Of a stretch of DNA of 64,000 nucleotides, positions 2-47,260 are shown in pieces. The position numbers and the translations under genes were made by a program. The notes below the pieces were generated by a model. It searched no databases, had not been told where the DNA came from, and saw only the letters and a list, made by a program, of their open reading frames with translations. Every line of letters begins with the position of its first letter. Within the stretch, counting starts at the first letter, position 1. This DNA comes from Bremia lactucae (Eukaryota; Oomycota; Peronosporomycetes; Peronosporales; Peronosporaceae). Location of the stretch: positions 7,631,567-7,695,566 of the forward strand of contig NC_090615.1 of NCBI RefSeq assembly GCF_004359215.1, written 5' to 3'.

Positions 2-834
2 AATAATGAACGCTTTAGAGTGGGTGAAAAGGTACTATTAAGTACTGCTACCCTACCTAAAAATGCGATCTCTGTACTACCTGGAGGTACTACGAGGTTG
101 TTTCCGCGTTTCATTGGGCCCTTTACGGTGGTGGAAGAGGCTAGAGACCTAAATTATAAGCTCACCCTTCCCCCGTATATGAAGACGCACCCCGTATTTT
201 ACGTGGGTCGTCGGAAACAGTATGTAGACCCAAATGAGGTCACAAATCCACATCTGGCTAAGGAGACCGATGGTGACGCCGACTGTGAGTCGAGCGTCAT
301 TCGGGTGAGGGGGGCGGTGAAGGCGAAAAGCTATCGGACCGACTCCTCACACCACGAACAGGACTTGGAGAGCGAGGGACATCACGCGAGTAACGCGGAT
401 CCCTCAGCATTATTCTTTCCAAGAGGTCTAAGCGAGTCTTCAGGCGTTCATAACCCTGACGAGCCTTCGCTCGGAGATCAAAAAGATCCGAGGTTAGGCG
501 CGAGACTTGACCCTCGAGATCCGCAATACGTAGTTCAGCAGCGCTTAACGCCTGTGACTGAACGGACGAAGGTAAGGCAGCCGCGATTATTTGGGTGAGA
601 TCGCCATTTCTATCTGGCGCCGCCTGCACTAATGGATGCGGGTGGGAATCAACGCTTCCTGTTGAAAGATTGCTTGCCCACCGCTCCGTGAGGCAAGGGC
701 TTCAGATCCTCGTCCACTGGAAAAGTTACCTGAAGAGTTTTGACTCTTGGGAACCGATCGATACCCTACGTATTGATGTGTGCGGCTTGGTGACTGCCTA
801 TGAAAAGGAGCACCAGCTGAGGCCTCTTCGCTAG
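2..834 (+). pseudogene. Pol C terminus: integrase C-terminal domain, long linker, chromodomain
   Basis: The frame is open from base 2 (the window cuts the gene) to a stop at 598. It opens with the integrase C-terminal fold typical of Ty3/gypsy Pol (GEKVLLST, RFIGPF, THPVFYVGR). A linker of about 120 residues rich in Asp, Glu and Ser follows. The chromodomain is in another frame (595-834), recognisable by LVHWKSY and FDSWEPI and ending LRPLR before the stop, so a frameshift near 590-600 separates the two. The copy at 21178-21918 keeps the frames joined over the same point. The linker is where the antisense coiled coil lies. In active chromoviruses this part helps target integration; here it is not functional. 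Confidence 0.85.
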
Positions 835-1757
835 TCTCATATGGACTAGCAGAGGTACGTTGTGAGAAGAAACAAGGGGTACAGTACCGTCCATGATTTC
901 TTCCACACGCAAGCGGGCGAAATTAATTCGCTTCGACCGCTGTTTCATCGCATCGGAATGCGGATGAATGCGGCGCAGGAATTCCGCCTCGTATTGGCCG
1001 GGCGTTTCATTTGAACGCAACACGACCGGGATTGGGAAAATACGCCCAAGCGATTTTCCCTGAGCCCTCCATGATTTAAAGACGCCATAATAATATCTGC
1101 GTCTACAAGAGCGCGCTTCAGGAGCGACGCTCTTGGCCCGTTTAAACAAGGCCATTTATATGGAGGGGGCATCTTTGGAATGCCACCCGTCACATAGCCA
1201 CGTTCAAAACGACTGGCTTGTGACACCGACTGAGCACGTTCACGTGTCGTCGGTGGAGCTTTAGGCTTCGAATGCTCTATGTGAGAACCTTTATGAATTA
1301 TGGTCTGAGCATAAGGCGTTGTGGTTAAACCCAACGGAGAAGCGGCTGCGCCTTTATGGGCAGCGCTCTTATTATCTGTCGCTGCGCTATCCAGCGTAGA
1401 CGACGAGACAGCATTCGTAAACGTTGCTGTCTCCATGTTGTGAGCCATGAGAGAATTTATGATGGGCAATAATGCGCCATCATCAACCCTCATGAGCTCG
1501 TTGTCCGCATCACTACTATGAGGTGACAGCAACGGTGTCGAATCATTGTAGTCAACAATGAGCGACGGATCAACATCCTCACTGTTTAAGTGGGATGAAT
1601 CCTTTAGCCCCGGTAACGCGACAGCAGCAGTAGCTGTCGGCGTTTCGACTAAGGCATTGGACGCGGCCGGCGAATTAACGCGGCGCGTGCGCTTAGTGCG
1701 AGGTTTAGTGGGCGTCTTCGCAGACAACCCACCAACATGGCCCCTTTAAGATGGCAT
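297..1757 (-). pseudogene. Antisense ORF of family-A gypsy (coiled coil plus Ser/Pro/Arg tail), copy 1
   Basis: This frame runs opposite to Pol, from 124 bp inside the 3' LTR back into the integrase-chromodomain linker. The presumed start at 1757 (MP) is followed by a TAA in this copy; the frame is then open to 945 (basic stretch TKRTRR, then Thr/Ala-rich and acidic stretches). It continues in the second frame (1155-766, with YEAEFLRRIHPHSD and INFARLRVEEIMDG). The last part (629-297) has heptad hydrophobics in AELRIADLEGQVSRLT and a Ser/Pro-rich end (SPSPVRG, SPSPPPSPE). The same protein is seen at 20632-21698 and in part at 41090-41194 and 46005-47260. Function is unknown; the basic N terminus may be a nuclear signal. 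Frameshifts and nonsense codons make this copy a pseudogene. Confidence 0.65.
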
Positions 1758-1880
1758 CTTTGGCGCCGTGTAGGTCGCTAGAGGGATTGAGTGAACTAGC
1801 GGCGCGTAAAGCTGCCCGCAGTTCCTCGCTCCTCTTTGACGAATTTAAAAATGTAAATTCGTTCTTTAAGGGGGGGATGG

Positions 1881-2340
1881 TGTAACGGGCTAAAGTTGCC
1901 CTAATGTTACACAGTTCCCGATAAGTACACTTGGTGTACTTAATGGGATGGTCAATCACTAAATTAAAGTAATAAGACCCAACACTCGGGTGTGGTTCAC
2001 AATTTATAAACACCCTTGTGTACGTGATGCACATGGATGCATTCAAATTAGGAGGGATGACGCCCAGCGTCATCCGTGATGACGGCTAGCGTCATCCGTT
2101 ACGCGAGGTATCTAGAAAGATACGCTCGCAATACATAATAAGTGTTATCTATAGAGATGACATTTTGATTGGTAAAAATAGGTATTTACATTTAATACGA
2201 TTAAATAAATCAGTCTGAAAACTACTTTCTACTTGGTAAGTGCGCACGAGGAGCCGGATTACCGCTCCCGTGACGACACTTAACCAGAGTACTTAAGGCG
2301 TTGGGTGAGGTCGCTAACGCGCCCATCGCAACTACCTCAC
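1881..2340 (+). repeat. 3' LTR of family A, truncated
   Basis: The LTR starts TGTAACGGGCTAAAG directly after a purine-rich tract. It holds an inverted repeat AAGTACAC..GTGTACTT and two stem-loop motifs of the form GATGACGC..GCGTCATC around 2056-2100. It matches 41327-41879 up to CTACCTCAC and stops there, so about 90 bp of the 3' end is missing. Confidence 0.85.
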
Positions 2341-4483
2341 CTTTATCGAAAACCGAGGCTCCAGAGCCGATTATGCTACGATAAAATTATAGTTGATTGG
2401 CCGGCGAAGAACCAAAAAGACTCGCGTAAGTGACTTGGCCTTTCTTACTACTTGAATACGTGCAACAACAAAAAAACGCTGATATGGACCATCCATATCT
2501 AATCTCAAAAAGAAAATATGCGGACTAGTGCTGGACTAGCACCGAGAACGACGCTTTGAAGCAGCAAAGGAGAGTCGCCTACATGCTCCAATTCTACTCT
2601 GCACCGTCCTGATCGGTCACCTGCGACGCATCGATCTGACCTTAATTCGCTACTTTTAGGAAATCGGTTTAGCCACATATTCGATACCCGTGTGTTTGTT
2701 GTTATTAATTAAAAACTACAGAATATTAACAGCATAAACTATTTCCATCAATAAATTCTTCTAGTGAACTGGAATAACAACACATCTTAATTATCACCTC
2801 TGTATTGATGAGAGTAGTGTAATTAAAATTACTTTTTGACAACTCATATTGAGTAGCTCTTTTTGCAAGCCTTTACAGCTACAATAGCTCGAACGGACTG
2901 AGGCAGCGCACTTTTAGCAACATATTTTCTGAAGACGCGAAAGTGTTATTTCGTTTGAGCAGCGGCAGCCAACAGCTGCAGAAAAGAGCTACCTAGCTCA
3001 TGACAAAGCGCTTCATGGTATGAAGAATGCTCTTGTCAATTTAAGTATTACCAAGCGATTTGTGGAACCACGCGTGATCACGTGTAGTTCCGCATAAGAC
3101 TACCGCGAGCGATCTCAACGAGGACCACTTGACGAGTGCTCGTGCCGGAGAGCGTTTGACAGTAAACAATAATTCACTGTCGTTATAAATCACGCATGTG
3201 AAGGAGGCTTAAGAGGAGGAGGTCTGCGTGTTTATTGCAAGTCTTGCAACAGCTGCCGCTACAATTGAGTAACGTGGAGATTTAAACATTTATTCCTGAC
3301 GTCCTTCTCAAGAACATCACCACCATTGAGAGCAGGTTCGAACCTCAATTTTTGAAGTCTAATTCCAATCATTGATATCAGCATCATGTACAGACTGTCA
3401 ACCAGTAAGCCGCTAGCAAGCAATCTTCTTCGTCGATATATCAGCTCAATTCATTCTGTTGCTCATTAGCCAAAACAGATGAAGCTGCAACGCGGCAAAG
3501 TCGAAATGTTAGCAGCTTAACCAATATACCAAATATAAAAGCCGCGTTAATACTGAAGAGTTTTGGAGTGAAGCTTAATTTTAGAAATTAAGGTGTCGGT
3601 GAACCTTACTTCAGCTGTGGCGAAGCAAATGGAAAGATGCTTGAGTCATCTACCCAGATAAAGCACCCGTCGACTAATAAGCTACTTACCTACGTACCTT
3701 TATAAGTCGCAACAGTAGCTAGATGAATGAAATTGGACACGATACGAGATTTAAAAGCGGGGAGAGAATAACAAACCAAATGACAACTCAAATCACAACC
3801 ATATGGGTTTATTGAAGATAGGCTTGTCTGTTTATAGAACAAATAAAATTCACCTTTACTCGTTTGCGAGTTTAATGTAAACAAACTTTGATCTCCTGCA
3901 TTTAAGAGAACTTGTATACTCTTTGCGTTCTATAGCAAAGGGTCTATTTTCTTAACTTTACGGACGCCTTCATGCTTATCAAGGCATCAATTCAGAGGTC
4001 GATAGGGTGGCACCAAAGCCTGCAATATTTTATATTTTTGGAGTCGAAGAATACTCTGATGTCTGGGTTTGCGAGACTGAAAGCACAAGCATGCCAACAC
4101 ATTGTGGTCTCATAGCCAGACATTAAAACAGTGCTTTTGGCCTTGAACCCGTAGTTAAAGCGAAATTGCTGGAAAAAAACACTTTATCATTGCAACAACA
4201 CCAGTAAGCCTAACTATTGAAGAAGCTTCCGTAACTAGCAATCGATAATATCCGAAACAAGCAGAAGGGGGATGCGATCAGTGTCTCATAGCCTGAGCTT
4301 TGATTAAAACAAGTTTTTTGTAGCCTTATGCGTACAAGATACGGAATCTCAAATCGGCTGTCACACCCATGTTCACCGAGAATATTGCAACGTTAGCCTT
4401 CAACATTCTCGCACTTAAGGTATTTAGTACGCGTGGATTTCTTTTAAAATTCGCGATCGTGATGTTTCATGAGAAGGAATTTG
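2341..4483. other. AT-rich intergenic DNA, no gene recognised
   Basis: Only short frames without recognisable motifs occur on either strand. I see no tRNA, rRNA or recognisable transposon protein. Old repeat relics are possible. Confidence 0.5.
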
Positions 4484-4867: not shown

Positions 4868-6353
4868 ATGAAGCTCACAGTTAAGACGCTGCAGGGCGTT
4901 TCCTTCCCGTTGGACGCGGAACCGACGAACTCAGTACGATTGTTTTCCTTTCTTATCTCCTATGCAACCCTTCGCTCTCCAAAGAGGCCTTCGGCTGTCG
5001 AAGCGATCGTTACAAGAAAAGCTCATGTAGTGACCGGTACTTGATGTGCAGGTTTCGGCGGTAAAGCAAAAGATTGAAGAATTGCAAAAGTTTCCTGTCG
5101 CCCAGCAGAAGCTCATACATGCGGGTAAAGTTCTCAGAGATGATAGCACGCTGGCCGAGTACAATGTTAAAGATAATGACTTCTTGGTCGTTATGGTCAC
5201 CAAGCCGAAAGCTCCAAAGCCTACGACCATCTCTGCCTCAACAATAGATTCTTCGTCTGCTATTTCATTCGCAAGCACATCCTCTGCCAGTATGGCTCCT
5301 CCCACGGCCGCTGTAGCTTCTTCAATTACCCCGAATACGTCGTCGGCGTCAAGCAGCTCTTCAGCAACCGCTCCGGCCGTTTCAACTCCGTCTGCAGCTC
5401 CAGCCACAACTGCCGCAAGCTCCATATCGCGCGAAAGTAGTGAAATTGTGACTGACGAACACATGAGTGCCTCTGTACAACAGCTGATGGACATGGGCTT
5501 CCCAGAGGACCAAGTGCGTGGCGCGTTACGCGCGGCATTCAACAATCCGGAACGTGCTGTCGAGTACTTAATGACGGGAATTCCAGCACAGGCAGCAGTA
5601 CGCCCGCAGACAGCTGCTCCGTCCGCAGGACTAGGTGCTAGTGGCGAGGATACGACCAACACTCTTGAAGCGCTGCGTAATCATCCGCAGTTTGACGCAC
5701 TACGTCAGCTCGTACAGTCTAATCCAGCGGCGTTACCGGCTGTGCTTCAGCAGATCGGCACGCAGAGCCCCGAACTGTTGCGCTTAATCCACCAAAACCA
5801 AGATCGCTTTGTGCAAATGTTGAACGAGCCCATTAGTAGTCGTGAGACTGGAGCATTGCCTAGTAGTGGCGCGGGCGCGGCTCCATTTGAGTTTGGCATG
5901 GGTAATGGGGGTGCCATGCCTACTCCCCAACAGATACAGCAACTGGTAGATTCGCTTTCACCGGAGCAGCAGACCCAGATGGCGGCTCAAATGGGAATGA
6001 CTCCCGATCAGCTTCGTGGTCTTTCACAGATGCTTAGCAATTTGCCACCTGAAGCAATGGAGCAGATGATGGCATCAATGGGTGGTAGTAGCGGACTTGA
6101 AGGACTTGGTGGAGGGACCGGTGCTGGTTCTGGAAGCCATCGCATCATGCTGACTGAAGAGGAAGCGGCTGCTGTTGACCGATTGTGCGAGATGGGTTTC
6201 GAGCGCACGGATGTTATTCAGGCGTACCTAGCGTGCGACAAGAACGAGGCATTGGCGGCTAATTTTCTTATGGATAGTGGAGACAACTTTGGCGGAATGG
6301 CCACTAGTGATACAGGGGGTCAGGGTGACGACAACGATGACATTTACGGATAA
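4868..6353 (+). CDS. RAD23: RAD23 UV-excision repair / proteasome shuttle protein
   Basis: RAD23 carries polyubiquitinated substrates to the 26S proteasome and, bound to XPC/Rad4, supports nucleotide excision repair in the nucleus. The gene has two exons: 4868-4933 and 5052-6353, with a GT-AG intron of 118 bp; joined they give about 455 residues, close to family size. Exon 1 starts [10 protein letters not shown] and carries the first strands of the ubiquitin-like domain (residues 1-73, ending FLVVMVTK). A Ser/Ala/Thr-rich linker follows, then UBA1 ([20 protein letters not shown], about 150-190), the XPC-binding/STI1 segment ([14 protein letters not shown], about 225-275) and the C-terminal UBA2 ([20 protein letters not shown]). 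UBL-UBA-STI1-UBA is the RAD23 order; ubiquilin lacks the middle UBA. A Met/Gln-rich stretch lies between the STI1 segment and UBA2. The start is fixed by UBL homology; a frame opening at 5046 with GTG is only the second exon. Confidence 0.93.
4934..5051 (+). other. Spliceosomal intron of RAD23
   Basis: The donor GTACGA follows TCA (Ser22) and the acceptor TGTGCAG precedes GTTTCGGCG. Removing 118 bp joins the UBL halves in phase 0. This is the only intron I could place with confidence in the window's host genes. Confidence 0.85.
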
Positions 6354-20631: not shown

Positions 20632-21698
20632 ATGCCACCTAAAAGGGGCCACGTTGGTGGGTCGTCTGCGAGACGCCCACTCAACCTAAAACTAAGCGCA
20701 CGCGCCGCGTTAATTCGCCGGCCGCGTCTAATGCCTTAGTTTACACGCCGACAGCTACTGCTGCTGTCGCGTCAACAGGGCTAAAGGATCTATCTACTTC
20801 AACAGTTGGGATATTGATCCGTCGCTCATTGTCGGCTACAATGAGTCGACACCGTTGCCGTCACCTCATAGTAGTGATGCTGACAACGAGCACATGAGGA
20901 ACGATGATGGCGCATTATTGCCCATCCAAACTTCTCTCATGGATACGAAGCAAAATTCCTGCGCCGCATTCATCCGCATTCGGATGCATGGAGCTGCGGT
21001 CGCAACGAATTAAATTCGCCCGCTTGCGTGTGAAAGAAATCATGGGCGGTACTGTTGTCCCTGTTACTTCTTTCAACGCTTCTTCTGCTAGTCTATTTGA
21101 GACTAGCGAAGAGGCCTCAGCTGGTCCTTCTTTTCATAGGCAGCCACCAAGCCGGGCACATCAATACGTAGGGGATCGATTGGTTCCCAAGAGTCAAAAG
21201 TCTTCGGGTAACCTTTTCATTGGACGAGGATCTGATTCCTTTGCCTCACGGAGCAGAGGGCAAGCAACCTTCCAACAAGGAGGCGTTGATTCCCACCCGC
21301 ATCCATCCGTGCAGGCGGCGTCCGATAGGAGTGGCGATCTCGCCCACCTACTCGCGGCTGTCTTACCATTGTCCGTTCAGTCACAAACGTTAAGCGCTGC
21401 TGAGCAACGCATTGCAGATCTCGAGAGTCAAGTCTCGCGACTGACCTTGGATCTTGTTGATGTCCGAGCGAAGGCTCGTCAGGGTTATGAACGCCTGAAG
21501 ACTCGCTTGGACCTCTTTGAAAGGATAATGCTGAGGGATCCGCGTTACTCGCGTGATGTCCCTCGCTCTCCAAGTCCTGTTCGTGGTGGGAGGCATCGGC
21601 CCGATAGATTTTCGCCTTCACCGTCCCCCTCACCCGAACGACGCTCGACTCGCAGTCGGCGTTACCATCGGTCTCCATTGACGGATGGGGATATGTGA
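20632..21698 (+). pseudogene. Antisense ORF of family-A gypsy, copy 2
   Basis: The start MPPKRGHVGG lies 131 bp from the LTR in the same GGCGCCAAAGATGCC context as in other copies. The frame then suffers two single-base losses and an internal deletion of roughly 0.5 kb relative to copy 1. From about 20960 to 21698 it is continuous: IKFARLRVKEIMGG, a Ser/Arg-rich stretch, the coiled coil AEQRIADLESQVSRLT with GYERLKTRLDLFERIM, and a tail with SPSPVRGGRHRPDR and SPSPSPSPERRSTRSRR. This tail resembles RS domains. It lies antisense to the Pol linker at 21217-21660. Confidence 0.65.
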
Positions 21699-23740
21699 CC
21701 TCATTTGGGTCTACATACCGTTTCAGACGACCCACGTAAAATACGGGGTGCGTTATCATATACGGGGGAAGGGTGAGCCTATAATTTAGGTCTCCAACCT
21801 CTTCAACCACCGTAAAGGGCCTAATGAAACGCGGCAACAACTTCGTAGTACCTCCAGGTAGTACAGAAATTGCATTTTTAGGTAGGGTAGCAGTACTAAA
21901 TAGTACTTTTTCACCCACTCTAAAGCGTATATTATTTTTGCGACCATTTCGATCCGCATATTATTTTTGCTTGTCCTGTGCGCTTGCCATTGCGTCACGG
22001 ACTTTACGTGTGATGGCTAATCGCTCATCCACAAAGCGTTGAGCCTCGCTCACGCTTTTAGCATCAAACTCGCCTATGATACCGCCAAGAGGTCGGTCAT
22101 AAGGCGTAGTTTTATTGACCACTGCTAAACTGGCAGGGTCACTAGGGCAAGTTTCTGTCTTTGAGATGATACCCTCATGGGTCATCGTCATATTGACGAA
22201 ACTATGTCCCTCTTTCGCACCGAGCATAGTGAGGGGCCCTCCCCCACTAAGACTCGGGCTGCGCACAAACGAGACTGGCGTCCGAGGATGGCGCAGTCCG
22301 TTAATATAAAACGGTGTCTCACCCGTACTGGCGTGGACACTGTTATTTATAGCGAACTCCACAAAGGGCAATTGCTTGCTCCACTCTTTGGGAGTTGCTA
22401 TAGTGCGTAAGACATCCGCCACGACCCGATTGGCACGTTCTGTTTGGCCATCGGTCTGGGGATGATCTGCGGTCGACATGTGGAGCTTGCTACCNNNNNN
22501 NNNNNNNNNNNNNNNNNNNNNNNNNNNNNNNNNNNNNNNNNNNNNNNNNNNNNNNNNNNNNNNNNNNNNNNNNNNNNNNNNNNNNNNNNNNNNNNNNNNN
22601 NNNNNNNNNNNNNNNNNNNNNNNNNNNNNNNNNNNNNNNNNNNNNNNNNNNNNNNNNNNNNNNNNNNNNNNNNNNNNNNNNNNNNNNNNNNNNNNNNNNN
22701 NNNNNNNNNNNNNNNNNNNNNNNNNNNNNNNNNNNNNNNNNNNNNNNNNNNNNNNNNNNNNNNNNNNNNNNNNNNNNNNNNNNNNNNNNNNNNNNNNNNN
22801 NNNNNNNNNNNNNNNNNNNNNNNNNNNNNNNNNNNNNNNNNNNNNNNNNNNNNNNNNNNNNNNNNNNNNNNNNNNNNNNNNNNNNNNNNNNNNNNNNNNN
22901 NNNNNNNNNNNNNNNNNNNNNNNNNNNNNNNNNNNNNNNNNNNNNNNNNNNNNNNNNNNNNNNNNNNNNNNNNNNNNNNNNNNNNNNNNNNNNNNNNNNN
23001 NNNNNNNNNNNNNNNNNNNNNNNNNNNNNNNNNNNNNNNNNNNNNNNNNNNNNNNNNNNNNNNNNNNNNNNNNNNNNNNNNNNNNNNNATGCCAAATATA
23101 AAGTCCAGACTTACTGACTTCCAACAGTCCGTTGGAATTGGTAGCAGCTTTAGTGGCGCACTGCTGGATGGTGCAGGCTTAACGCGCTGACACTGTTCGC
23201 AAGAGCAAAATAGTTGGCTACCCATCATTATAGGTGTGGCCACCAAAATTCCTCTGACACTCGTAAGAATGTCTTTTCACGGCCCAGATACCCACAAGAT
23301 GGCGCATCATGGAGCTCGTGAAGAATCATCAGCTTGAGATCTGTGTGATGAGGCATATATATTCTCAAGGGATCACAAGGTGACAGCTGATGCCATAACA
23401 GGCCATCGCTGTAGCTAAAGCGATTTAGCTTAGCTTTCAGGTGCGACGGAAGGGATACCTTTCGTCCACCGAAGTGATCCAACGGCAGGCGATAATGGTC
23501 GTCCTGACTGTAGCTCTCTTTTATCTCCGAGGCCGATGAGCTCGTCACGTATGCCTTCATGGCTGCCAACGTGGACGGCTCAAATTGTGCTTTAGCACTA
23601 GACACACTTTCCTGGTCTCTAACCTCGAAGTCTGGTCTTCGCGATAAAGCGTCAGCCAAGACATTCGACTTACTCGGCCTATATTCAACTATGAATTTTT
23701 TTTTTTTAAATTCAGAGAAGAATGTGAGCCATCTTGCCGT
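21178..23740 (-). pseudogene. Family-A integrase, linker and chromodomain
   Basis: The chain runs from RNase H through DALSRRPDFEV and the H2C2-type spacer (SCGYLGREKTF, SCEQCQRVKPAPSS). The core is lost in the gap apart from its ends (SLDFIFG; ADHPQTDGQTERAN). It continues through NNSVHASTGETPFYINGL and the C-terminal domain (GEKVLFST, THPVFYVGRLKRY) to the chromodomain after a stop at 21217 (FDSWEPI). Linker and chromodomain are joined in frame here, unlike copy 1. Confidence 0.85.
22495..23088. other. Assembly gap (594 N)
   Basis: Run of N inside the integrase core. Open frames spanning it are artefacts of unknown bases. Confidence 0.99.
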
Positions 23741-23818
23741 TCTAGGCGAGAGGTGCGGTGAGTTTATTGCGCTCCGCAGTGATGCGTGATCCGTATAAAT
23801 TACAAATGGTTCGAAGCC

Positions 23819-24003
23819 AGCTGTCGGGGTTCGGGTAGGAAGTAGAACTGTTGATGCTACTAAGTGACATCAAGTAGATATAGTTTCTTATTATTCTTTG
23901 TTGTTGCAGATTTTGTTGCAGTATTTGCGTTCCCGGAAATTTTGTTTGTTTTTTGCAATTTTTTATAGCATTATCTGTGTTGAATTTCTTATGCGTAGGG
24001 TTT
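23819..24003. repeat. 185-bp sequence duplicated at 26208-26392
   Basis: Begins AGCTGTCGGGGTTCGGG and ends GCGTAGGGTTT, with one mismatch to the other copy. It interrupts family-A RNase H (between FEPFVIYTDHASLR and KELL-like sequence) and is followed by a single N. Confidence 0.9.
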
Positions 24004-24009
24004 NTTGAC

Positions 24010-25670
24010 AAGAGCATACTTTATTGAAAGTAGTTCTTTGTCATATACGGGTAATTCAGTTCCGCGGCTTTTAAAAGCCGGGACTGATAAGAGATGACGC
24101 GGTCAACGCCGTCGTCATCCCTTCTGCATGAGCGCGCTGCCGATTGCAAAGTTACTTGCATCGTAGACGACGCTAAAGGGCTTATCCTCGTCTGGTAATG
24201 CCAAGACCGGTCTACAAGAGATTGCTTCACTGATGTGAACGCATCATCTTCTTCTCGTAACCAAACCCATTCTGCGTCCTATTTAGGGGGTCAGATACTG
24301 GTATAGTTTGCTCAGCATAATTCTTGCTATATTTATGCAAGTAATTAGCGAGCCCTAGGAATTGGCGCAAATCCTTCGCATTCCATTGGATTGGCCATTC
24401 CTTTACTGATCTACCTTGTCTGCGCTGCTCGTACAATGTGTATCTACGATGCAACCCAGCACAGGTATCTCAGGGACCCCTATGACGCACCTTTGAAGTT
24501 GACGTACAATTGGGCGTCCTTCAGAGTCTGCAACACAGCGTCTAAATGACGCTTGAGGACTGTATTGCGCTCAGCCCGTCCTGGCCCTACTATGCTCGAA
24601 TACATCGTCAAAGTAATGGGACGCGTAGGCACGGAGCTGACGCATCACGTTAGCCACCACTCGGTTGAATGTCGCTAGTGCGTTTTTCAACCCTTGGGGC
24701 ATCACAAGCCACTCCCAAAGCATACCGCTTGGGGTGCTTACAGCTGTTTTGGCTACATCGGACTCTCTCATGGGTACCTAATAGTAGCCATCCTTCTAAA
24801 TCCAACGCGGAAGAGATAGTTGACTTTCCCATGGAGTTCAGCAAGACATATTTCCGCGGGATTGGCGTTTGCGCCGGTATGGTCGCCGTGTTCAGCTTAT
24901 TGTAAGCATGAACCACGCGCCATTTACCTGTGGCTTTACGCACACAATCGGTCGGGCTGCAGTGAGGCAATTTGCTCTCACGCACATGTCCCGCCTTCGC
25001 TCGCTTGTCGAAGAACTCATCGATATAATCGACTTGTTCTTTCGGCAACGGCCATTGCCTGGTCACACAATACTTGGTACCAGGTTCGAGGTCTATCTCG
25101 TGCACGATGCCCCTATCTGCTGGTAGGCGGCTCGGCACTTCTTCTGGGAACATATCGCGATGTTTCCACAGAACCTCAAAGAACGGACTGTCTCTCAAGG
25201 TATCCCAGCCTTGAGCATCGAACCACTTCTTTTTGTCCGTTTCTAGGATGCTCTCGTCCATTGTGGACGACGAGCAACAGTCCACCAAGTTTTCTTCTGG
25301 AACTGGCGCAACTATTTCGTGCTATACGATCGGTCGCCTCTTCTCGCTTGCCATCTTGGCAAAGCGACTCAAACATCGCCGGTCTCTTTCTTAGAGCCGC
25401 GAGTTTCACAAAAATTTGCGATGCACCCGAATCCGCCAGGAGGGTCATCACCTGGTCACCAGCAGGGTTGAGGTCCGAAATTTTGAGACCTCAGGGATTA
25501 TACTACCCATTTGCTCGATAACTCTTAACTTAGGGGTCGCTTCAGAGTCCGTGTCAGTAGGGCATCCCGCCCCTACTGCGCTCGTGCATTTCCCGACCCC
25601 TCAGTGGTCGATGCAGAACTCATGCGTCTCGCACGCTGGTTCTTGCCACCGCCCTTTGGGAAGGGAGTCC
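24010..25670 (-). pseudogene. Family-A protease, reverse transcriptase and RNase H start
   Basis: The protease has the retropepsin motif LADSGASQIFVKLAAL (25451-25176). The RT runs 25288-24227: EIDLEPGTKYCVTRQWPLPK, AYNKLNTATIPAQTPIPRK, a YFDDVFEHS catalytic motif near 24600 and QFLGLANYLHKYSKNYAEQ. RNase H starts with SRLLKAAELNYP. Frameshifts split it into at least four frames. Confidence 0.85.
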
Positions 25671-26155
25671 TCATGCTGAGCGTCTTTGCCCCAGCAGGGA
25701 CCCTGGCATAGCAGCGAGCATCATATGGCCGCGCTTGCCGCATTTGTAACAGACAACGTCTGCATTGCCCAACTCCATGGGAGTGGCATCTGACCTCTCG
25801 GCCGACGGCTTATACCAAGCTCTCGCCAAGGCACCGTTGTAGGATTGCTCCTCAACCAAGGCAATTTTGATCGCCTCTTCTCGTAATATTTCAGGGAAAG
25901 TATGGATTATATCCATCAAAGACGACACCTTTCTGAAAAGGGCCTGTCGCGATGGGCCATGCCGTAGTCCGTTCATAAACGTGGGCACCTTAATGTGCTC
26001 CGGAATCGGACCTACGGTAATGGACGCTGACAACGAGCGCATCTCTTGCACATACTCTTGCAGAGATCGCTTTGCCTGTCGCGCTCCAAAAAAGCGCGCC
26101 TGAAGCAACACTTCGTTGTTCGCCGATCGCCGATGTAGGGAACGCCTTCTTGTAC
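25671..26155 (-). pseudogene. Family-A Gag C-terminal part with zinc knuckle
   Basis: Contains LLQARFFGARQAKRSLQEY and VPTFMNGLRHGPSRQALF, the capsid region shared with 39040-39230. It ends with the zinc knuckle CYKCGKRGHMM, whose last Cys is lost by a frameshift. The N-terminal half of Gag is missing. Confidence 0.8.
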
Positions 26156-26207
26156 GGATGACGCTAGGCGTCATCCCTCCTAATGTGAGTTCAGCATTCT
26201 TTCGGAA

Positions 26208-26392
26208 AGCTGTCGGGGTTCGGGTAGAAAGTAGAACTGTTGATGCTACTAAGTGACATCAAGTAGATATAGTTTCTTATTATTCTTTGTTGTTGCAGAT
26301 TTTGTTGCAGTATTTGCGTTCCCGGAAATTTTGTTTGTTTTTTGCAATTTTTTATAGCATTATCTGTGTTGAATTTCTTATGCGTAGGGTTT
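26208..26392. repeat. 185-bp sequence duplicated at 23819-24003
   Basis: 184 of 185 bases agree with the copy inside the family-A element. This copy lies between the end of that element and the 3' side of the D2HGDH gene. Confidence 0.9.
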
Positions 26393-26471
26393 CTTTAAAG
26401 CGCGTCTGTGAGTCAGGAGTAATTTAAATGTCCCATACTACAATAACAAGCACAGTAATTGAGATATTTGT

Positions 26472-28001
26472 TTACCAAGTACTTGTCTGCTCACTTGAAG
26501 GTAGAATTTTAAACGGATTAAGAATTCCATTTGGGTCCATCATCTCTTTCATTTGCCTCATAAGCTGTATCGACTCGTCGGACTTGGAAAGGTGGAGGAA
26601 CGATGGCTTGTGCATGCCTATACCATGCTCCGAACTAATGCTTCCTCGATATTTGGACGTCCACTCGAAGACGTATGGTTCTAGTGCGTTAAAAACCTTT
26701 TCGTCGTATTCAAGAGTAGAAATATTCAAATGTAGATTGCAGTCGCCCAGATGACCAAAGCCGACCACCTCAGCGCCGAAAGGAGCTAACTTCTTGCGAA
26801 CGTCTTCGACAATCGTATAGTACTTGTCAATAGGCAGCGAAATGTCGTACTTATACACGTACCCACGAGAACTAAGAGACATTGAAATATCTTCACGTAG
26901 CATGAAGAGCTTCTTCACCTGGGCCTCATCTTGAGCAACCGTACCATCAGTTACAATGCCAGAGCCCATGACATCCTCCAAATACGCCTCCAGCTTCTCC
27001 ATGTCATGGTCACTGTTGCTACCTGACGTCTCTATTAGCACATAGAATGGGCTTGGACTCGCAAGCGGATCCGTTATCCAGTCTTGCTGAGTCAATATCA
27101 TGTCGATAGACTGACGATCCATAAACTCAACAGCTGATAAGATCTCACCCAACTTCTTTTTTGCCTCAACAAATGCCTTTTGGCAAGATAGGAAATCGTT
27201 GCAAGCAAGAAAGGCGACATTCCTTGAAGACGATCGCGGGGGCGTCAAAATTGACACCTTCGTCACTACACCTAGTGTGCCCTCCGATCCGATAAACAAT
27301 TGCTTTAGGTCGTACCCCGTGTTGTCTTTACGCATGGTACTAAGGCAGTCAATAACAGTACCATCCGCAAGTACAGCCTCGATACCGAGCACCGTACCGT
27401 GGAGGGATCCATACCTGAGTAGACGGAGCCCGCCAGCGTTTGTTGCGATATTTCCACCAATTTGACATGTACCTTTCGCACCGAGGTCCAGCGGCATCAT
27501 GTAGCCGTGCTTGGCCACGTAATTGTCTAAATTCTCCAAAACGCAGCCAGCCTCACAGACCAAAATTCCCGAGACGTCATCGAATGAAATCACTTTGTTC
27601 ATTGAGCTCATAGATAGCACAATCTCGTCGAATACTGGCACACTGCCGCCTACAAGACCCGTGTTGCCTCCTTGCGGCACAACAGGTATATTGCGGTCGT
27701 TGCAGTAATTAAGAATGGACGAGACATGCTCCAATGTCTTCGGTTTGAGTACCATCTGGTGGTTGCTCTGAGCCTTATATTTCTTAAGCCAGTCAATCGT
27801 GAAAGCTTCTGTGTCATCGGCGTCAGTAAGTACGCTCTCGGGGTTAAGAAGCTGCTGGAAATAGGCCTTATCGTGATCGTTCCAGGAAGCCAGCGCATTT
27901 TTACGGGCAGAAATAGAAAAGGCGCGCGTAGCAGCAGTATGATGAATGCTGGAGATGGCGCTACACTGGCTGCGAGCAGTACGCAGGAGCCGGGGTAGCA
28001 T
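26472..28001 (-). CDS. D2HGDH: D-2-hydroxyglutarate dehydrogenase, mitochondrial
   Basis: FAD-dependent oxidation of D-2-hydroxyglutarate to 2-oxoglutarate in mitochondria, passing electrons to the ETF system in known homologues. The 509-residue frame has a basic, Ser-rich N terminus (MLPRLLRTARSQCSAISS) like a mitochondrial presequence. The FAD-binding PCMH domain is at about 90-270, with PQGGNTGLVGGSVP, NIATNAGGLRLLRYG and FIGSEGTLGVVT. The FAD-linked oxidase C-terminal domain carries the ligand-binding GFGHLGDCNLHLNI and SSEHGIGMHKP. Length and motif order match D2HGDH and the closely related D-lactate dehydrogenase family. I prefer D2HGDH from the overall layout, but substrate cannot be proven from sequence. 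It is divergent to the zinc-finger gene at 28114 with 112 bp between the starts. Confidence 0.9.
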   Translation of the reverse strand: MLPRLLRTARSQCSAISSIHHTAATRAFSISARKNALASWNDHDKAYFQQLLNPESVLTDADDTEAFTIDWLKKYKAQSNHQMVLKPKTLEHVSSILNYCNDRNIPVVPQGGNTGLVGGSVPVFDEIVLSMSSMNKVISFDDVSGILVCEAGCVLENLDNYVAKHGYMMPLDLGAKGTCQIGGNIATNAGGLRLLRYGSLHGTVLGIEAVLADGTVIDCLSTMRKDNTGYDLKQLFIGSEGTLGVVTKVSILTPPRSSSRNVAFLACNDFLSCQKAFVEAKKKLGEILSAVEFMDRQSIDMILTQQDWITDPLASPSPFYVLIETSGSNSDHDMEKLEAYLEDVMGSGIVTDGTVAQDEAQVKKLFMLREDISMSLSSRGYVYKYDISLPIDKYYTIVEDVRKKLAPFGAEVVGFGHLGDCNLHLNISTLEYDEKVFNALEPYVFEWTSKYRGSISSEHGIGMHKPSFLHLSKSDESIQLMRQMKEMMDPNGILNPFKILPSSEQTSTW

Positions 28002-28076
28002 TCGGGAACGATTTTATAAACTGTTGCTAGAAGGTTGCATGTGGTGTGTATACAGCGCTCTGGACGAAGTGGCCAA

Positions 28077-28103
28077 CCAATTTTGCATTAAACGTAAAAT
28101 TGG
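28077..28103. promoter_or_regulatory. CCAAT-box inverted repeat in a divergent promoter
   Basis: CCAATTTT, an 11-base spacer, then AAAATTGG: a perfect 8-bp dyad placing a CCAAT box on each strand. It lies between the starts of D2HGDH (28001, minus) and the REI1-like gene (28114, plus). A shared regulatory role is inferred. Confidence 0.35.
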
Positions 28104-28113
28104 CATCTCCAGC

Positions 28114-29433
28114 ATGTTGACGTGCACAGCTTGCCGCCTAAGTTTCGTGTCGCATTTGGAGCAGAAGGGCCACTTTCGCATGGACTGGCATCGCTATAAT
28201 CTGAAGCGTAAGGTAGTGGAGCTTCCGCCTATCTCTATGGAGCAGTTTGATTACCGTATGCTCCAGTTGCGTGAGGAGAAGGAGGCACTGGTTGCCAATG
28301 ACCCGAAGCAAAAGCAACGAATTCGCATTGAGGAAATTAGAAAAGCAGGTTCGAAAACGCTGCTTAAATGCGGGCCCTGCAACAAAACCTTTACGACCAC
28401 AAACGCACATGAGAATCACCTGGCGTCCAAGAAGCACATGACGAATGCCAAGAAAAGCCCTGAGATCCTCGAGGCGGTGGTGACTGTGGAGAAAAAAGTG
28501 GACATTCTTTTTTTGAGTGGTTCTATTGCACTGAAAGCGCAGACCAGCGAAACCGGGAAGGTGACAGAAGAAGAGCTGTCAAAGGAGATAGAGGAGTACA
28601 AGAAGCAAGTGCCACTCGAGAAAGAGGATTGCATCTTCTGCACACACCATGCGGCAGACTTTCACGCATGCTTATCGCATATGTTAAAGGTCCACGGCTT
28701 CTTCATTCCGGACGTGGAATTTCTGGTGGACTTACAGGGTTTGATTAGCTATTTAGCTGAGAAGGTAAAGGTCGGCTTCTATTGTTTGTACTGCAATGGC
28801 AAAGGAAAGTCTTTCAGATGTTACCAGGATGTTCAAAAGCACATGGCATCGCTTTCTCACTGCAAGCTGCGCTATGAGACCGAGAATTTGGACGAGCTAC
28901 TTACATTTTACGACTTTTCAAACCAGTATAAGAACATAAAGGATGCTTCTACTGACGAAATAGTCGAGTGGGAGACAGACAGCGAGGCTAGTATTGACAG
29001 TAACGAAGATGTAGTTGAGGAGGAAGTAGTTGAGCAGAACGAGAACCTGGTGGGCGAGAACGCTGTCAGCGTGTCTGAGACCGGTGAGCTGGTGCTCGCG
29101 AGCGGCCGCCGCCTTGGCCGTCGTGAATTTCGTCGCTACTACAGACAGCACTTTCGTCAGGATGAGACGCGAGTGTCAGTGCTCGCTGCCCATAAAGAAA
29201 ATCTTCTTCTAGCGTACCATACAGCAGGCGTCGACCCCCGCGCTGGTAGCACGGCGCTGTCAACGGCATTTGTTGCCAGGTTTTTACAGAACCGCAACAA
29301 CATTTCCGGCGGCATGTCAATAATCGAGGCAAAGCGCAAGAACTTTTGGCATGAAAAAAATCGTTCTCGCCTGGATAACCGCAGTCATAAACTGCAAAAT
29401 AATCCGAATCGTAGAGCTATGGTGACGGTCTAG
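28114..29433 (+). CDS. ZNF622: REI1/ZNF622-family C2H2 zinc-finger protein (60S biogenesis)
   Basis: Members of this family act in the cytoplasm in late 60S maturation, helping to recycle the shuttling factor Arx1 and working with the tRNA-like export/quality-control machinery. The protein is about 439 residues. It starts with a U1-like finger (MLTCTACRLSFVSHLEQKGH, then FRMDWHRYNLKRK) and has a second finger with CGPCNKTFTTTNAHENHLAS. The conserved core has CIFCTHHAADFHACLSHM, HGFFIPDVEFLVDLQGLISY and FYCLYCNGKGKSFRCYQDV. An acidic stretch and the basic C-terminal signature (RRLGRREFRRYYRQHFR) follow. I chose 28114 because the first finger begins there; the frame stays open upstream into the D2HGDH start region, which is unlikely to be coding. 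Confidence 0.9.
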   Translation: MLTCTACRLSFVSHLEQKGHFRMDWHRYNLKRKVVELPPISMEQFDYRMLQLREEKEALVANDPKQKQRIRIEEIRKAGSKTLLKCGPCNKTFTTTNAHENHLASKKHMTNAKKSPEILEAVVTVEKKVDILFLSGSIALKAQTSETGKVTEEELSKEIEEYKKQVPLEKEDCIFCTHHAADFHACLSHMLKVHGFFIPDVEFLVDLQGLISYLAEKVKVGFYCLYCNGKGKSFRCYQDVQKHMASLSHCKLRYETENLDELLTFYDFSNQYKNIKDASTDEIVEWETDSEASIDSNEDVVEEEVVEQNENLVGENAVSVSETGELVLASGRRLGRREFRRYYRQHFRQDETRVSVLAAHKENLLLAYHTAGVDPRAGSTALSTAFVARFLQNRNNISGGMSIIEAKRKNFWHEKNRSRLDNRSHKLQNNPNRRAMVTV

Positions 29434-29712
29434 ATTGAGGTAGCAAACGAATGTGCGAATTTCTAATAAATCGACCTCGAGGCATGTGGAATATGCCATT
29501 TGCATATTGTATCCATCTCATTAGGGCTTTGCGATGGGTACGTGTTCCCTGTCCATCAATTTTTTGCTCGCATGCAATGCATACCTCTTCTCGTTGAAAT
29601 GAGTCTTACGGGTCGTGGTGTTGGACGTTATCTCGATCCTTTGATAAATTATACGGTAGACCTCATCAACGATATCTTCTTAACCTATTTGCAAGGGCGA
29701 CTCGGATAAATT
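29434..29712. other. Intergenic, 3' flank of the zinc-finger gene
   Basis: No motif-bearing frame is seen; it presumably holds the 3' UTR of the upstream gene. Confidence 0.4.
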
Positions 29713-29728
29713 GCTCAATCTCCCTTTC
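29713..29728 (+). promoter_or_regulatory. Oomycete-type core promoter (Inr/FPR-like)
   Basis: GCTCAATCTCCCTTTC fits 13 of 16 positions of the oomycete start-site consensus GCTCATTYYNCAWTTT. It sits 14 nt before the ATG of the small secreted-protein frame, a normal place for oomycete genes with short leaders. Confidence 0.45.
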
Positions 29729-29741
29729 TGCTGCTGACACA

Positions 29742-29993
29742 ATGATGGGAGTCAAAATCATTGCGTTTGCTAGCATTGCGGTTCACATCTCGCTCGCTAT
29801 CACCTTGACATCCGTTGCTTCAAAACGAAACAGTCCACGTCGCCAATCTTTCTTCATTAAGAATCATAGCCTTCACATCAGGCTTGCCTTCGGATCTATT
29901 GGCAGCAGGTCTAATCGCCCATCGATGTTGATAAGGCCCTTCTTCCTTCGTCAGAAAGTGCCTATGCAAATTAGACTTTTTAGAAGCCAGTGA
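29742..29993 (+). CDS. Small basic candidate secreted protein (83 aa)
   Basis: I do not recognise a family. The N terminus (MMGVKIIAFASIAVHIS, then LAITLTSVAS) has the charged start, hydrophobic core and small residues of a signal peptide, with likely cleavage before KRNSPRRQ at about residue 27. The remaining 57 residues are strongly basic (many Arg, few acidic), without cysteines. No RXLR motif is in the usual window, so it is not a standard RXLR effector. A core-promoter match lies just upstream, which raises the chance that this is a gene. It could instead be a chance frame in the 1.2-kb intergenic space. Confidence 0.45.
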   Translation: MMGVKIIAFASIAVHISLAITLTSVASKRNSPRRQSFFIKNHSLHIRLAFGSIGSRSNRPSMLIRPFFLRQKVPMQIRLFRSQ

Positions 29994-30607
29994 CAAGGAT
30001 GTGACAACTTTTCAGTCCCTGCAAGACTGCCATGAATGAAAGACTTGGCACGAGAGCTCTATAGTAGCCGTCTAAAATCATAGGAGAACAATATTTAATA
30101 TGCGTTGTACCGTTAAGCTGCCAAGCTAAGCCCTCTGCCGTGAAAGATATGAGTAACTATAAACAAGTTTCAGCGATGAATGCTGCCACTAGGCCAGCAG
30201 TGCTGTCTAAGTATCGGCTACCTGAATTTTCCTCCAGAGAATGATGTCATCTCTCTCGGATCTGAGCTAACCATATGGTAAGCCTCAAACATACGTGCCC
30301 GGCCATCCAACGTACATAGCCGTCTAAAACGGTTCTCTCAATAATTATATCAAGTAAAAATTATATCCATCGCCCTCGTCGTCGGTCGCGGTATGTCGTT
30401 TGTGTGAGTCCGGGTTGCCGTCCCAAGATCGATCGCCGGCAGTACAGCACTGGCCTATAAGCCATCTCTTAATTTAGCGACGGAGTCAAAGTACGGCAGC
30501 GTACCCATCTCCCCAAAAGTGTGAGTGAGTGTCGTCGACCGACGGAGAGAAACCCTGCGCTTTGTACCGTGGACAAGAAGAACCAGACTTCACGTTCTTG
30601 TCTCACG
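29994..30607. other. Intergenic region upstream of MO25
   Basis: No supported gene. The last part carries the MO25 5' flank; an in-frame ATG at 30521 exists but precedes a stretch unlike MO25 proteins. Confidence 0.4.
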
Positions 30608-31912: not shown

Positions 31913-32093
31913 AAAGTTGACGGCTTGCCGTCAAAGCAATTACTGCATGATAGTATTTAAGGTATAAGGGAAAGATGCCAAAGGCGCGTCAAGTTAAGGG
32001 CGCCCGCCATACATTTTAGAGCTGCAATGGTATCGCAAAAGGGTCTATCCAATGTTATAATCGGAATCGTAAACTTCGGACTCATCATTTGAC

Positions 32094-32297
32094 ATGTCGC
32101 CCAAAAGTACAATTGTGTTTGAAAGGCAGCCGAGTTGCGACATTTTTAATAACCAGCATAATACCGCAGCACAGTACCGTACCCCGAATTGTGGGTTAGA
32201 GCTTCTGCTTTTCCCACAGTCTGTCGTGCTGTCGGAGTCTGAGGACGAGGTCCGCAAAGTCGATTCGCGCGCTTGGCTGCTACTCGGCTGCGCATAG
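32094..32297 (+). other. Upstream frame before the PX gene (uORF or 5' exon)
   Basis: A 67-codon frame starts MSPKSTIVFERQPSCDIF and includes an acidic SESEDEVRK stretch. It ends 33 bp before the PX start. It might be an upstream ORF or a first exon, but I could not find a splice that joins it in phase. The remaining 31913-32329 shows nothing else. Confidence 0.25.
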
Positions 32298-32329
32298 TTA
32301 CGGTCAACATTTACATCGTTGTTGGCAAC

Positions 32330-33214: not shown

Positions 33215-33309
33215 TCGTCGTCTAATTATTTCAGGTTCAATACTATAAAAAAGTGGAATTGATTTTTTTTATTTTAATTTTACTTTGATACATTTGAGAG
33301 CTGATTAGT

Positions 33310-34881: not shown

Positions 34882-35003
34882 ATTGACAGGCATAACATAA
34901 AAACAAATTAAGGTAGCACCACGGTGGCTTTGACACATGTTTCATCATTCCACCAAGCAGTCAAAACGAGGCTTCCGAATCTAAATTGGGACGCTTCGTT
35001 AGG

Positions 35004-36527: not shown

Positions 36528-36591
36528 TCTTTTTACTGATGTCACCCTCTTCTGCAATAGAATGCATGTATAAAACACCAACCTATGCTTG

Positions 36592-37845: not shown

Positions 37846-38388
37846 AGTAACGGGCTTAAGTTGCTTTAATGTTACCCAGTCCCCGTTAAGCACACCAAGT
37901 GTGCTTAAGGGGATGGTAAAATACTTAAATAAAGTAATTCGACCCACCACCTGGGTGTGGTTCACATTGTGAACCACTCTTGTGTATGTGATGCACATAG
38001 GTGCATTCACATAGGAGGGATGACGCCTTATATCATCCGTGATGACGGCTAGCGTCATCCGTTACGCGAAGTATCTTGAAAAATACGCTCGCAATACATA
38101 TTGGTGTTATCGACAGAGATGACATTTTTTGATTAACAAAAATAGGTTTTATATCATTAATACGATTCAACATTAATCAGTCTGAAAACTACTTCCTGCC
38201 TGATAAGTGCGCACGAGGAGCCGGATTTCCGCTCCCGTGACGACACTTTACTCGAGTACTTAGTGCGTCAGGTGAGGTCGCTAAGGCGCCCACCACTGCA
38301 CGCAAGAGAAGAGGTCTAATCGCTTCCTCGCTGTGCTAGGGTGTGTGCTTAAGTAGAGCGTGGCCGCATTAAGACGTGCCGGCCTACA
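37846..38388 (+). repeat. 5' LTR of family A copy 4
   Basis: Begins with a mutated terminus (AGTAACGGGC) and ends GGCCTACA. It has the GATGAC stem-loops near 38020-38060. The primer-binding site follows after two bases. Confidence 0.85.
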
Positions 38389-38390
38389 CT

Positions 38391-41070: not shown

Positions 41071-41089
41071 GCGCTGACGTTAAAACTAA

Positions 41090-41194
41090 GGCATTAGACA
41101 CGGCCGGCGAATTAAAGCGGCGCGTGCCTTTAGTTTTAGGTTGCGTGGGCGTCTTCGCAGACGACCCACCAACGTGGCCCCTTTTAGGTGGCAT
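41090..41194 (-). pseudogene. N-terminal fragment of the family-A antisense ORF
   Basis: Starts MPPKRGHVGGSSAKTPT at 41194, 133 bp from the 3' LTR, with the conserved GGCGCCAAAG before the ATG, and continues open through TKGTRRFNSPAVSNAL. It is cut off by the internal deletion. It shows the original start codon without the nonsense or indels seen in other copies. Confidence 0.6.
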
Positions 41195-41326: not shown

Positions 41327-41879
41327 TGTAACGGGCTAAAGTTGCCCTAATGTTACACAGTCATCGTTAAGTACACTTGGTGTACTTAGGGGGATGGTCA
41401 ATTAATAAATTATAGTAATTAGACCCAACACTCGGTTGTGATTCACATTTGTGACCAACCCTTGTGTATGTGATGCACATAGGTGCATTCACATTAGGAG
41501 GGATGACGCCTAGCGTCATCCATGATGACAGCTAGCGTCATCCGTTACGCGAGGTATCTAAAAAGATACGCTCGCAATACATATTAAGTGTTATCTGTAG
41601 AGATGACACTTTGATTAATAAAAATAGGTATTTATTTTAATATTATTAAATATAAATCAGTCTGAAAACTTCTTCCTACTGGATAAGTGCGCACGAGAAG
41701 CCGGATTACCGCTCCCGTGACGACACTTAACCAGAGTACTTAGTGCGTTGGGTGAGGTCGCTAACGCGCCCACCACAACTACCTCACTGCACGCGAGAGA
41801 AGCTGGTAAACCGCCTCCTCGCTGTGCTAGCGGGTGTGTCTGAGCAGAGCGTGGCCGCAGTACGACGTGCCCGCCTACA
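41327..41879 (+). repeat. 3' LTR of family A copy 4 (reference LTR, 553 bp)
   Basis: Runs from TGTAACGGGC to GCCTACA. It contains AAGTACACTTGGTGTACTT, two GATGAC..GTCATC stem-loops (41505-41545) and an AT-rich TATA-like region near 41630. The purine tract AAAGGGGGAATGG precedes it. Confidence 0.88.
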
Positions 41880-42316
41880 CAGAGAGTCACTTAGTTCTAT
41901 TGAACTAATGGGTTTTACAATTCAGGGAGTCGTACAAGCTATCAAAGCTTAAGAAATCCTAGTTTCATGGCTTCAGGGGTTCGTAGAACCAAGTGGCAAC
42001 TAGTGCCCAAGAGGATATACCTTAGAAAGGCTTATATCTCTTACAGGTCAATGCGCAAGCCTTAGGAAGGCAGTTATTGCTTTAAGATCAAAAGGGGAAC
42101 TGCACTTTATTTAATTATTTAAATCGAAAACCTTATCCTAGCTAATTTAAAATAGATTTTATCCACCAGATTTATATCTGGCGGCGACCACATTTGTTAC
42201 CCATACTAAATGGGATTTAAGTAACTGACTAATTTTAAATTAGATAAAAGGGTAGTTTTCCCATAAAGTAAATGTACCACAACAACGGTTCTCCCACCGA
42301 AGTGTGCCCCATTACA

Positions 42317-46004: not shown

Positions 46005-47260
46005 TCAAGGCGATCCGAAGTCAGTCGTGAAAATTGACTTTCGAGATAGCCGTTCCATCGCTGAGCAGCGCTTAGCGCCTGTGATTGAACGGAAGCAAAA
46101 TCGGCTCCCGTGAGTAGGTAGGCGAAACGCCGCTCCTATCGGGCGCCGCCTGCATTGCTTGAAGCTGCTGTGACCCAACGCTTTCTTGTGGAAGGTTGCT
46201 TGTTCGCCGCTCCGATAAACATAAGCTTCAGATCTTCCTCCAATGGAGGAAATAACCGAAGAGTTTCGACTTTTGGGAACCGGTGACGTTGTGTGCGTCG
46301 ACGTGCTGGGACTGCTGCCTGCCAATGGCTACGCAACCTACCGACCCTCGTTAATCGCCCCCACACCAGTTGGGGCCGCTCCGGTGGCTCCAAATGGACT
46401 AGCCGGAGTAGCGCGATGGGAAGACGCAGGGGGTACAGTACCGCCCATGATTTCTCTCATATGCAGGGAGCGAAGTTGATTCGCTGCGACCGTTGTTTGG
46501 CCACATTGCTATGTGGCTGAAACCGGCACAGGAATATTGCTTCGTATTGGTCGGTTGTTTCATTAAACGCAATACGACCTGGTCGGGGAAACACGGCCAA
46601 TGATATTTTCTCAGCCTTTCATGAATTGAAGACATAATAATAGTTAGGCGCGTCTATGAAAGTGCACTCTAGGAGCGACGCACTATTCCATCCGAACGAG
46701 ACCATTCAGATATAGATGGCATCGGTGGTATGCTACCAATCCCATAGCCTCGTTCAATATGGTTTAATTGTGACACCAACTGGAGACGTTCACGTGCTTC
46801 TCTGCGTCAATCTCCTGTTGTGGATAATGGTCTGAGCGACAGATGATGTGGTTCTACCTAACTGAGAAGCTACTGCACTTTTATGGGCAGTGCTCTCATG
46901 AATGGCCGCAGCGCTGACGATGCTGACGACGAGACAATTGCCTTCGTAACGTTAGGCGTCTCTATATTGGAAGCAATGGGTGAATTTCGAATGAGCATTA
47001 TAGCGCCATCACCCTACCCCACACATTGAAGTCAACAATGAGCGACGGATCTGCATCCTTACTGTGCAAGTCGGATGGGTCGTTAAGTCCAAATAACAGC
47101 GCGACAGCAGCAGCAGCGGTAGCTGTTGGCGTCGTTACTGAGGTACTAGGCGACGATGGCGTTTTATTGTTGCGCGTGCGTTTTAGGTTGTGCGTCTTCG
47201 CAGACAATCCATCAGCTTTGCCTTTCTAGGGGGCATGTCAAGCACAATGTGATGTACCCC
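46005..47260 (-). pseudogene. Antisense ORF of A' gypsy, degraded
   Basis: Begins MPPRKAK near 47237, then (after a shift) SAKTHNLKRTRNN and ADPSLIVDFN match the other copies. The coiled-coil region survives only as DNA similarity (VQSQALSAA, then SQFSRLTS) with indels. It supports an old origin of the frame. Confidence 0.5.

Follow-up and report, generated by a model that had tools for sequence, protein, structure and literature searches.

A probable antisense accessory gene, conserved in other downy mildews, faces the 3′ end of pol in a Bremia lactucae Ty3/gypsy element with a chromodomain

A chromodomain-bearing Ty3/gypsy element of Bremia lactucae has an antisense frame of ~490 codons on the strand complementary to the 3′ end of its pol gene, and the locus raises the question whether this frame is a gene of the element and, if so, what its product might do. 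The window analysed here is a stretch of 64,000 nucleotides (contig NC_090615.1, positions 7,631,567 to 7,695,566), and the coordinates of its relevant features are collected in the table. The original prediction, made from the letters of the window, described a composite antisense frame of about 450 codons opposite Pol at 297-1757 and the same protein in three further copies. Both claims were confirmed. In copy 1, the ATG at 1757-1755 on the reverse strand is soon followed by an in-frame stop; an open piece then extends over 1745-945, a frameshifted piece over 1155-766 contains YEAEFLRRI, and a tail piece over 701-297 contains the coiled coil and the SPSPVRG motif. Copy 2, read on the forward strand, has kept the N-terminus and lost ~170 codons; its C-terminal part is open for 266 codons, beginning with ~21 codons in another register. 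Copy 3 retains only the first ~36 codons, and the copy of the older subfamily is heavily broken.

Table. Parts of the element and of the antisense frame in the window (positions within the 64,000 nucleotides)
Feature	Position	Strand	Remarks
Sense pol, 3′ end (copy 1)	2..834	+	integrase SH3-like domain in the 2-598 frame; stop at 832-834
Chromodomain after frameshift (copy 1)	562-834	+	Pfam Chromo, 7.8e-9
Putative antisense accessory ORF, broken (copy 1)	297..1757	-	start 1757, end about 297
Antisense-only part, no open sense frame opposite (copy 1)	835..1757	-	codons 1-307 of the unbroken frame
Antisense part overlapping pol, i.e. chromodomain and linker after SH3 (copy 1)	297..831	-	coiled coil, Ser/Pro/Arg tail
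Purine-rich tract before 3′ LTR (copy 1)	1866..1880	+	read from sequence
3′ LTR, starts TGTAAC (copy 1)	1881..2406	+	right end approximate
Antisense ORF, internal deletion (copy 2)	20643..21698	+	
Pol 3′ end, opposite the antisense ORF (copy 2)	21217..21960	-	
Pol, RNase H end with integrase zinc-binding domain directly after (copy 2)	23231..23869	-	PF17917 (below cut-off), PF17921
Sense gag (copy 2)	25674..26258	-	Retrotrans_gag; CCHC knuckle just below cut-off
5′ LTR, internally deleted element (copy 3)	37847..38389	+	
Antisense ORF, first ~36 codons only (copy 3)	41087..41194	-	
3′ LTR (copy 3)	41328..41880	+	
Antisense ORF, older related subfamily	46005..47260	-	heavily broken; 73% identical

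The element itself has the order LTR-gag-PR-RT-RNaseH-IN-chromodomain-LTR. In copy 1 the end of pol also matches SH3_Tf2-1 in Pfam (3e-12), and in 55 of 60 aligned copies pol is closed by a TAG at this same site. Beyond the pol stop follow ~1 kb without an open sense frame, the purine tract and the 3′ LTR. Copy 2 preserves a sense gag and a single RNase H leading into integrase, so that the usual genes are present and the antisense frame is an addition to them. By the chromodomain (PF00385) at the C-terminus of its integrase, the element may be labelled a chromovirus. At copy 2, a 188-base stretch occurs twice, at 23819-24006 and 26208-26395, 2.4 kb apart and with 99% identity. The surroundings are mixed: a RAD23-like protein with ubiquitin, UBA and XPC-binding domains is encoded at 5046-6350, a few kb from the end of the element, and an island of host-like genes lies amid element debris at 26475-36581. 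The genes of this island encode a FAD-linked oxidase, a divergent C2H2 zinc finger, Mo25, PX, Las1 and a ClpX/HslU-like AAA protein; the ORFs of the oxidase and the zinc finger overlap by 56 bp at their starts.

The full extent of the antisense frame is seen in L027, an unbroken copy elsewhere in the genome, where it has 491 codons. Codons 1-307 lie outside pol, whereas the last 184 (codons 308-491) face the chromodomain together with the linker that joins it to the SH3-like domain. From a start codon ~124 bp inward of the 3′ LTR, the frame crosses the pol-LTR interval and terminates within the last part of pol. The part without sense overlap (835..1757 on the reverse strand of copy 1) encodes a basic N-terminus (MPPKRG...KRTRR), an acidic middle with the stretch DPSLIVDYNESTP, and a conserved central domain with the motif PIPVVL..NET..YE; the part opposite pol ends in a basic, SR-like RSPSP tail. 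The coiled coil is predicted as a helix over residues 366-435, with pLDDT 84-96 over residues 381-430 and a poor model elsewhere (mean 50). The central piece was modelled separately as three short helices (pLDDT 71-89 over its residues 11-70, mean 64.7, pTM 0.37). Sequence searches of Pfam, PHROGs, NCBIfam and PDB gave weak matches only, mostly in the coiled coil, and fold searches gave no match at E 0.001 or better. Neither PF04195 (TRP28) nor a bZIP family appeared among the Pfam matches at E up to 1 when 10 homologues were scanned, with filters that drop most matches above E 0.1. As counted on the columns of L027, the aligned copies change their open pol register relative to that copy at ~3028-3165 of its locus, on passing from the overlap into the pol stretch past the antisense stop.

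At least 144 matching places occur in this genome, and 60 copies of the family, here called family A, were aligned; all 60 were retrieved with the ORF region itself, and 40 of them span leader, ORF and pol end. Few of them are intact: at least 450 stop-free antisense codons are found in 5 of the 60 and at least 300 in 13. The depletion of stops that the original prediction had expected in the antisense frame is nevertheless pronounced across the copies. In the antisense-only part (codons 1-307), after removal of rows with less than 80% codon coverage, which left 56 of the 60 copies, stops occur at 0.44 per 100 codons in the antisense frame, while each of the remaining five frames has between 3.95 and 8.29. 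The route by which copies were retrieved does not cause this depletion, as those found by DNA (0.37, n=30) and those found by protein (0.51, n=26) agree. In the part overlapping pol two frames are open, the antisense frame with 0.52 stops and pol with 0.67, and the others have 3.66-6.11. In 5000 first-order Markov sequences modelled on the antisense-only part (922 bases), no open run in any of six frames exceeded 245 codons, compared with 307 in this part of L027 and 491 overall; because L027 was picked for being open, the stop density over copies is the fairer figure. A comparison of the longest open runs strand against strand was rejected as unfair, since pol accounts for no more than ~275 codons in the 1.9 kb alignment. 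The ancestral member of the family had this antisense frame open.

Insertions and deletions give weak support to antisense coding. The 152-base leader has five indels common to at least three copies, all of them frame-shifting; the 1473-base ORF has two, of which one shifts the frame and the other is of 3 bases, and the 272 pol bases beyond it have two that shift the frame. Indels so widely shared probably predate insertion. Of the ORF indels common to exactly two copies, six are frame-shifting and two are of 3 bases. Two groups of equal-scoring places were observed besides. One consists of eight dispersed copies (L076 and seven further places), and the one copy read has stops in both the antisense ORF and the pol end; a dead element of this group may have multiplied recently, via duplication or with help from others. 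The group was considered as evidence that the gene is dispensable and set aside as indecisive, the pol end of the copy read having a stop too. The other group consists of six copies of a divergent subfamily (L075 and five further places), of which the one copy read has both antisense ORF and pol end broken.

Whether selection has acted on the encoded protein was addressed at two depths. Among the 60 family-A copies, which are ~91% identical to one another (median), singletons and shared sites give no codon-position signal, and neither does the stretch that is pol only. The differences look as if they arose after insertion, by neutral decay, and the within-family test is uninformative because the copies form a star of decayed insertions. 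The second depth was divergence between subfamilies. One relative gave p 0.12, and five relatives (C and L075-L078) showed a third-position excess of shared changes in the antisense-only part (p 0.016). The main test used 12 relatives of 73-76% identity, namely the window copy plus 11 chosen from the 39 other places scored; L076 entered the five-relative test only and was later excluded as too close. In the antisense-only part, changes in one relative only have an N/S ratio of 1.09 relative to the singleton baseline, whereas those common to at least two of the 12 relatives have 0.62 (p 0.0014; codon-bootstrap 95%, 0.47-0.80) and those common to at least three have 0.54 (p 0.0005; 0.41-0.72). 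The reduction holds without CpG sites and for transitions; transversions alone go in the same direction against family-A baselines, 0.76-0.81, without significance (p about 0.3). Neutral hits at coinciding sites make up some of the shared changes, so that the real constraint may exceed what was measured.

Smaller portions of the frame and the neighbouring frames were scored in the same way. Codons 1-150 alone give 0.61-0.66 (p 0.06), and in the pol overlap the antisense frame gives 0.66-0.78 (p 0.09-0.22) and pol 0.80 (p 0.27). The mirror sense frame is equally low, at 0.60, yet contains 16 stops in L027; it scores low because its third positions coincide with those of the antisense frame. A value of 0.12 for pol beyond the antisense stop had been taken as a positive control and was withdrawn, as it mixes two registers and comes from 3 of the 12 relatives; in the right register the shared changes there are three synonymous and no nonsynonymous. 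Between subfamilies the antisense frame evolves as protein-coding sequence does.

The frame is also conserved in other downy mildews, as judged from predicted proteins. Protein searches returned 7, at least 20 and at least 24 relatives, and 13 of the 24 matches listed are named as Peronospora effusa or P. farinosa. Full-length homologues have 480-488 residues (P0008 of P. effusa, from a cluster of 19, P0013, P0017, likewise from a cluster of 19, and P0019), and P0016 reaches 559 residues by an upstream extension. P0013, P0016, P0017 and P0019 are 45-62% identical to P0008 over 87-100% of its length. The homologues start with MPPKRG (MPLKRG in P0008), and the central domain, coiled coil and tail are likewise kept. 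Over residues 201-300, which have no sense overlap, they are 55-88% identical to L027, a conservation at least as high as that of the overlap part. Two records reach beyond the protein: the P. farinosa protein P0009 extends into sequence that matches pol, read in reverse, upstream of the chromodomain (63% over 60 residues), and the start of P0016 lies in the leader (73% over 40 residues). The arrangement, not just the protein, is thus common to the hosts. P0007 gave no match when compared against pol, and no relatives were found among encoding loci in viral and prokaryote collections.

That the frame is open by chance or as a mirror of coding on the other strand is extremely unlikely; such an effect is possible in principle for the part overlapping pol, but of the 491 codons 307 are past the end of pol, in a region whose sense frames are all closed (11-19 stops in each of them in L027), and the Markov controls do not reach this length. 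Hardly more credit can be given to the view that the antisense RNA alone matters, through double-stranded RNA and self-silencing, with the open frame incidental. This possibility is named in the review of plant elements (PMC7264820), but a role of the RNA would neither keep one frame free of stops or lower N/S in it, nor preserve a protein of ~480 residues across hosts. The frame might instead be what is left of a gene or element that was taken up in reverse orientation, formerly coding elsewhere and now passively carried, as 55 of the 60 family copies lack 450 open codons and the copy read is broken in each of the two equal-scoring, probably young, groups. This is improbable too, given that constraint is still seen in relatives 24-27% apart, that the Peronospora homologues hold the same position relative to pol, and that no other family is among the matches listed in the protein searches.

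A further alternative accepts the gene and disputes its function: the product could be an assembly (gag-like) or silencing-suppressor factor and not a nuclear regulator. The coiled coil and basic tail would suit assembly and nucleic-acid binding equally well, but a gag with a zinc knuckle (the knuckle just below cut-off) is already encoded by the element in sense, and this role is considered unlikely, if less so than the readings without a functional gene. The original prediction, which placed an accessory gene in antisense between pol and 3′ LTR, draws support from stop depletion specific to one antisense frame, from purifying selection seen in the shared changes and from homologues of the same length. 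That the frame is a protein-coding gene can be held with high confidence.

Granted the gene, a role as nuclear regulator has roughly even chances or slightly better, and the complete explanation, an antisense accessory gene whose product is a nuclear oligomeric factor, is favoured with some reserve, confidence in it being lowered slightly by the thin pol control and the indel counts. Transcription of the gene would start at a promoter within the 3′ LTR or adjacent to it. The oomycete Inr motif had one match in three LTR regions. The product of ~480-490 residues, with its basic N-terminus, small helical domain, long coiled coil and SR-like tail, would then enter the nucleus and perhaps self-associate into oligomers, which is a guess. 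There it could serve as an element-encoded accessory factor tuning sense transcription or the nuclear steps of integration. This proposal draws on the proximity to the 3′ LTR, the basic ends and the coiled coil, on the nuclear location of the Grande product and on the predicted DNA-binding of TRP28.

Antisense accessory genes as such are a known kind of gene. They have been reported, with unknown function, for LTR retrotransposons of flowering plants and of a fungus (PMC7264820, PMC11963269). The plant elements with such a frame (aORF-3R) include Grande with gene23, RIRE2, Retand with ORF4 (TRP28, PF04195) and PvRetro13; for their proteins DNA-binding or coiled-coil (Smc) features are reported, TRP28 being predicted to bind DNA and the Grande product being described as nuclear (PMC7264820, PMC11963269). 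The Bremia element shares with them an antisense gene between pol and the 3′ LTR that is common to several species, here to the host of the window, P. effusa, P. farinosa and further records; for Grande, RIRE2 and PvRetro13 the likeness is one of published description, not of sequence. Retand is described as a non-chromovirus with a pol-LTR interval of 2.9-6.6 kb (PMC7264820, PMC11963269). In contrast, the Bremia element has a chromodomain, which speaks against membership in Retand; its pol-LTR interval measures ~1 kb, and ~184 codons of its antisense gene lie opposite pol. Judged by the Pfam matches of the 10 homologues scanned, which do not include PF04195, the antisense protein is not of the Retand type. 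Outside plants, the LTR element Boty of Botrytis cinerea and Sclerotinia is described with an antisense ORF before the 3′ LTR (PMC7264820); Boty is fungal, and it too is likened here by description and not by sequence. The arrangement of the Bremia element therefore belongs to a kind known from plants and Boty (PMC7264820), and is distinct in the absence of PF04195, in its host group, in its chromodomain and in the overlap with pol.

Among oomycete elements, Chronos is a Ty3/gypsy element with integrase, chromodomain and two RNase H domains (PMC5348765). Like it, the Bremia element has a chromodomain after integrase, but it differs in having no second (archaeal-type) RNase H, RNase H leading directly into integrase as read in one copy (23231-23869 and 24024-24278). 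The word 'antisense' is absent from the main text on Chronos (PMC5348765). No antisense retrotransposon ORF of an oomycete occurs in the titles or abstract openings found by a literature search, outside which most subscription papers lay. Among retroviruses, HTLV-1 carries the antisense gene HBZ near its 3′ LTR, with a coiled coil and basic stretches in its product. By its position and predicted features the Bremia antisense gene resembles HBZ in all three respects and differs from it in that its homologues match no bZIP family in the Pfam scan described above. HBZ is mentioned in one of the plant papers (PMC11963269).

Several consequences follow for the downy mildews and for their elements. 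The 13 listed proteins of P. effusa and P. farinosa, now 'unnamed protein product', could be re-labelled as retrotransposon antisense proteins and excluded from host gene counts. With at least 144 places in one genome and homologues elsewhere, the family offers a compact system for the study of antisense-gene function. An antisense protein conserved among downy mildews without TRP28 suggests that the arrangement arises repeatedly and benefits the element. A bolder reading, tentative and rather less likely to be right than wrong, is that a chromodomain element of a stramenopile independently invented a regulatory gene in antisense that draws its transcription from the 3′ LTR, with its frame locked to the code of the chromodomain. 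If that were true, the chromodomain targeting module and the antisense regulator would constrain each other, and LTR retrotransposons would have converged repeatedly on a retrovirus-like antisense switch.
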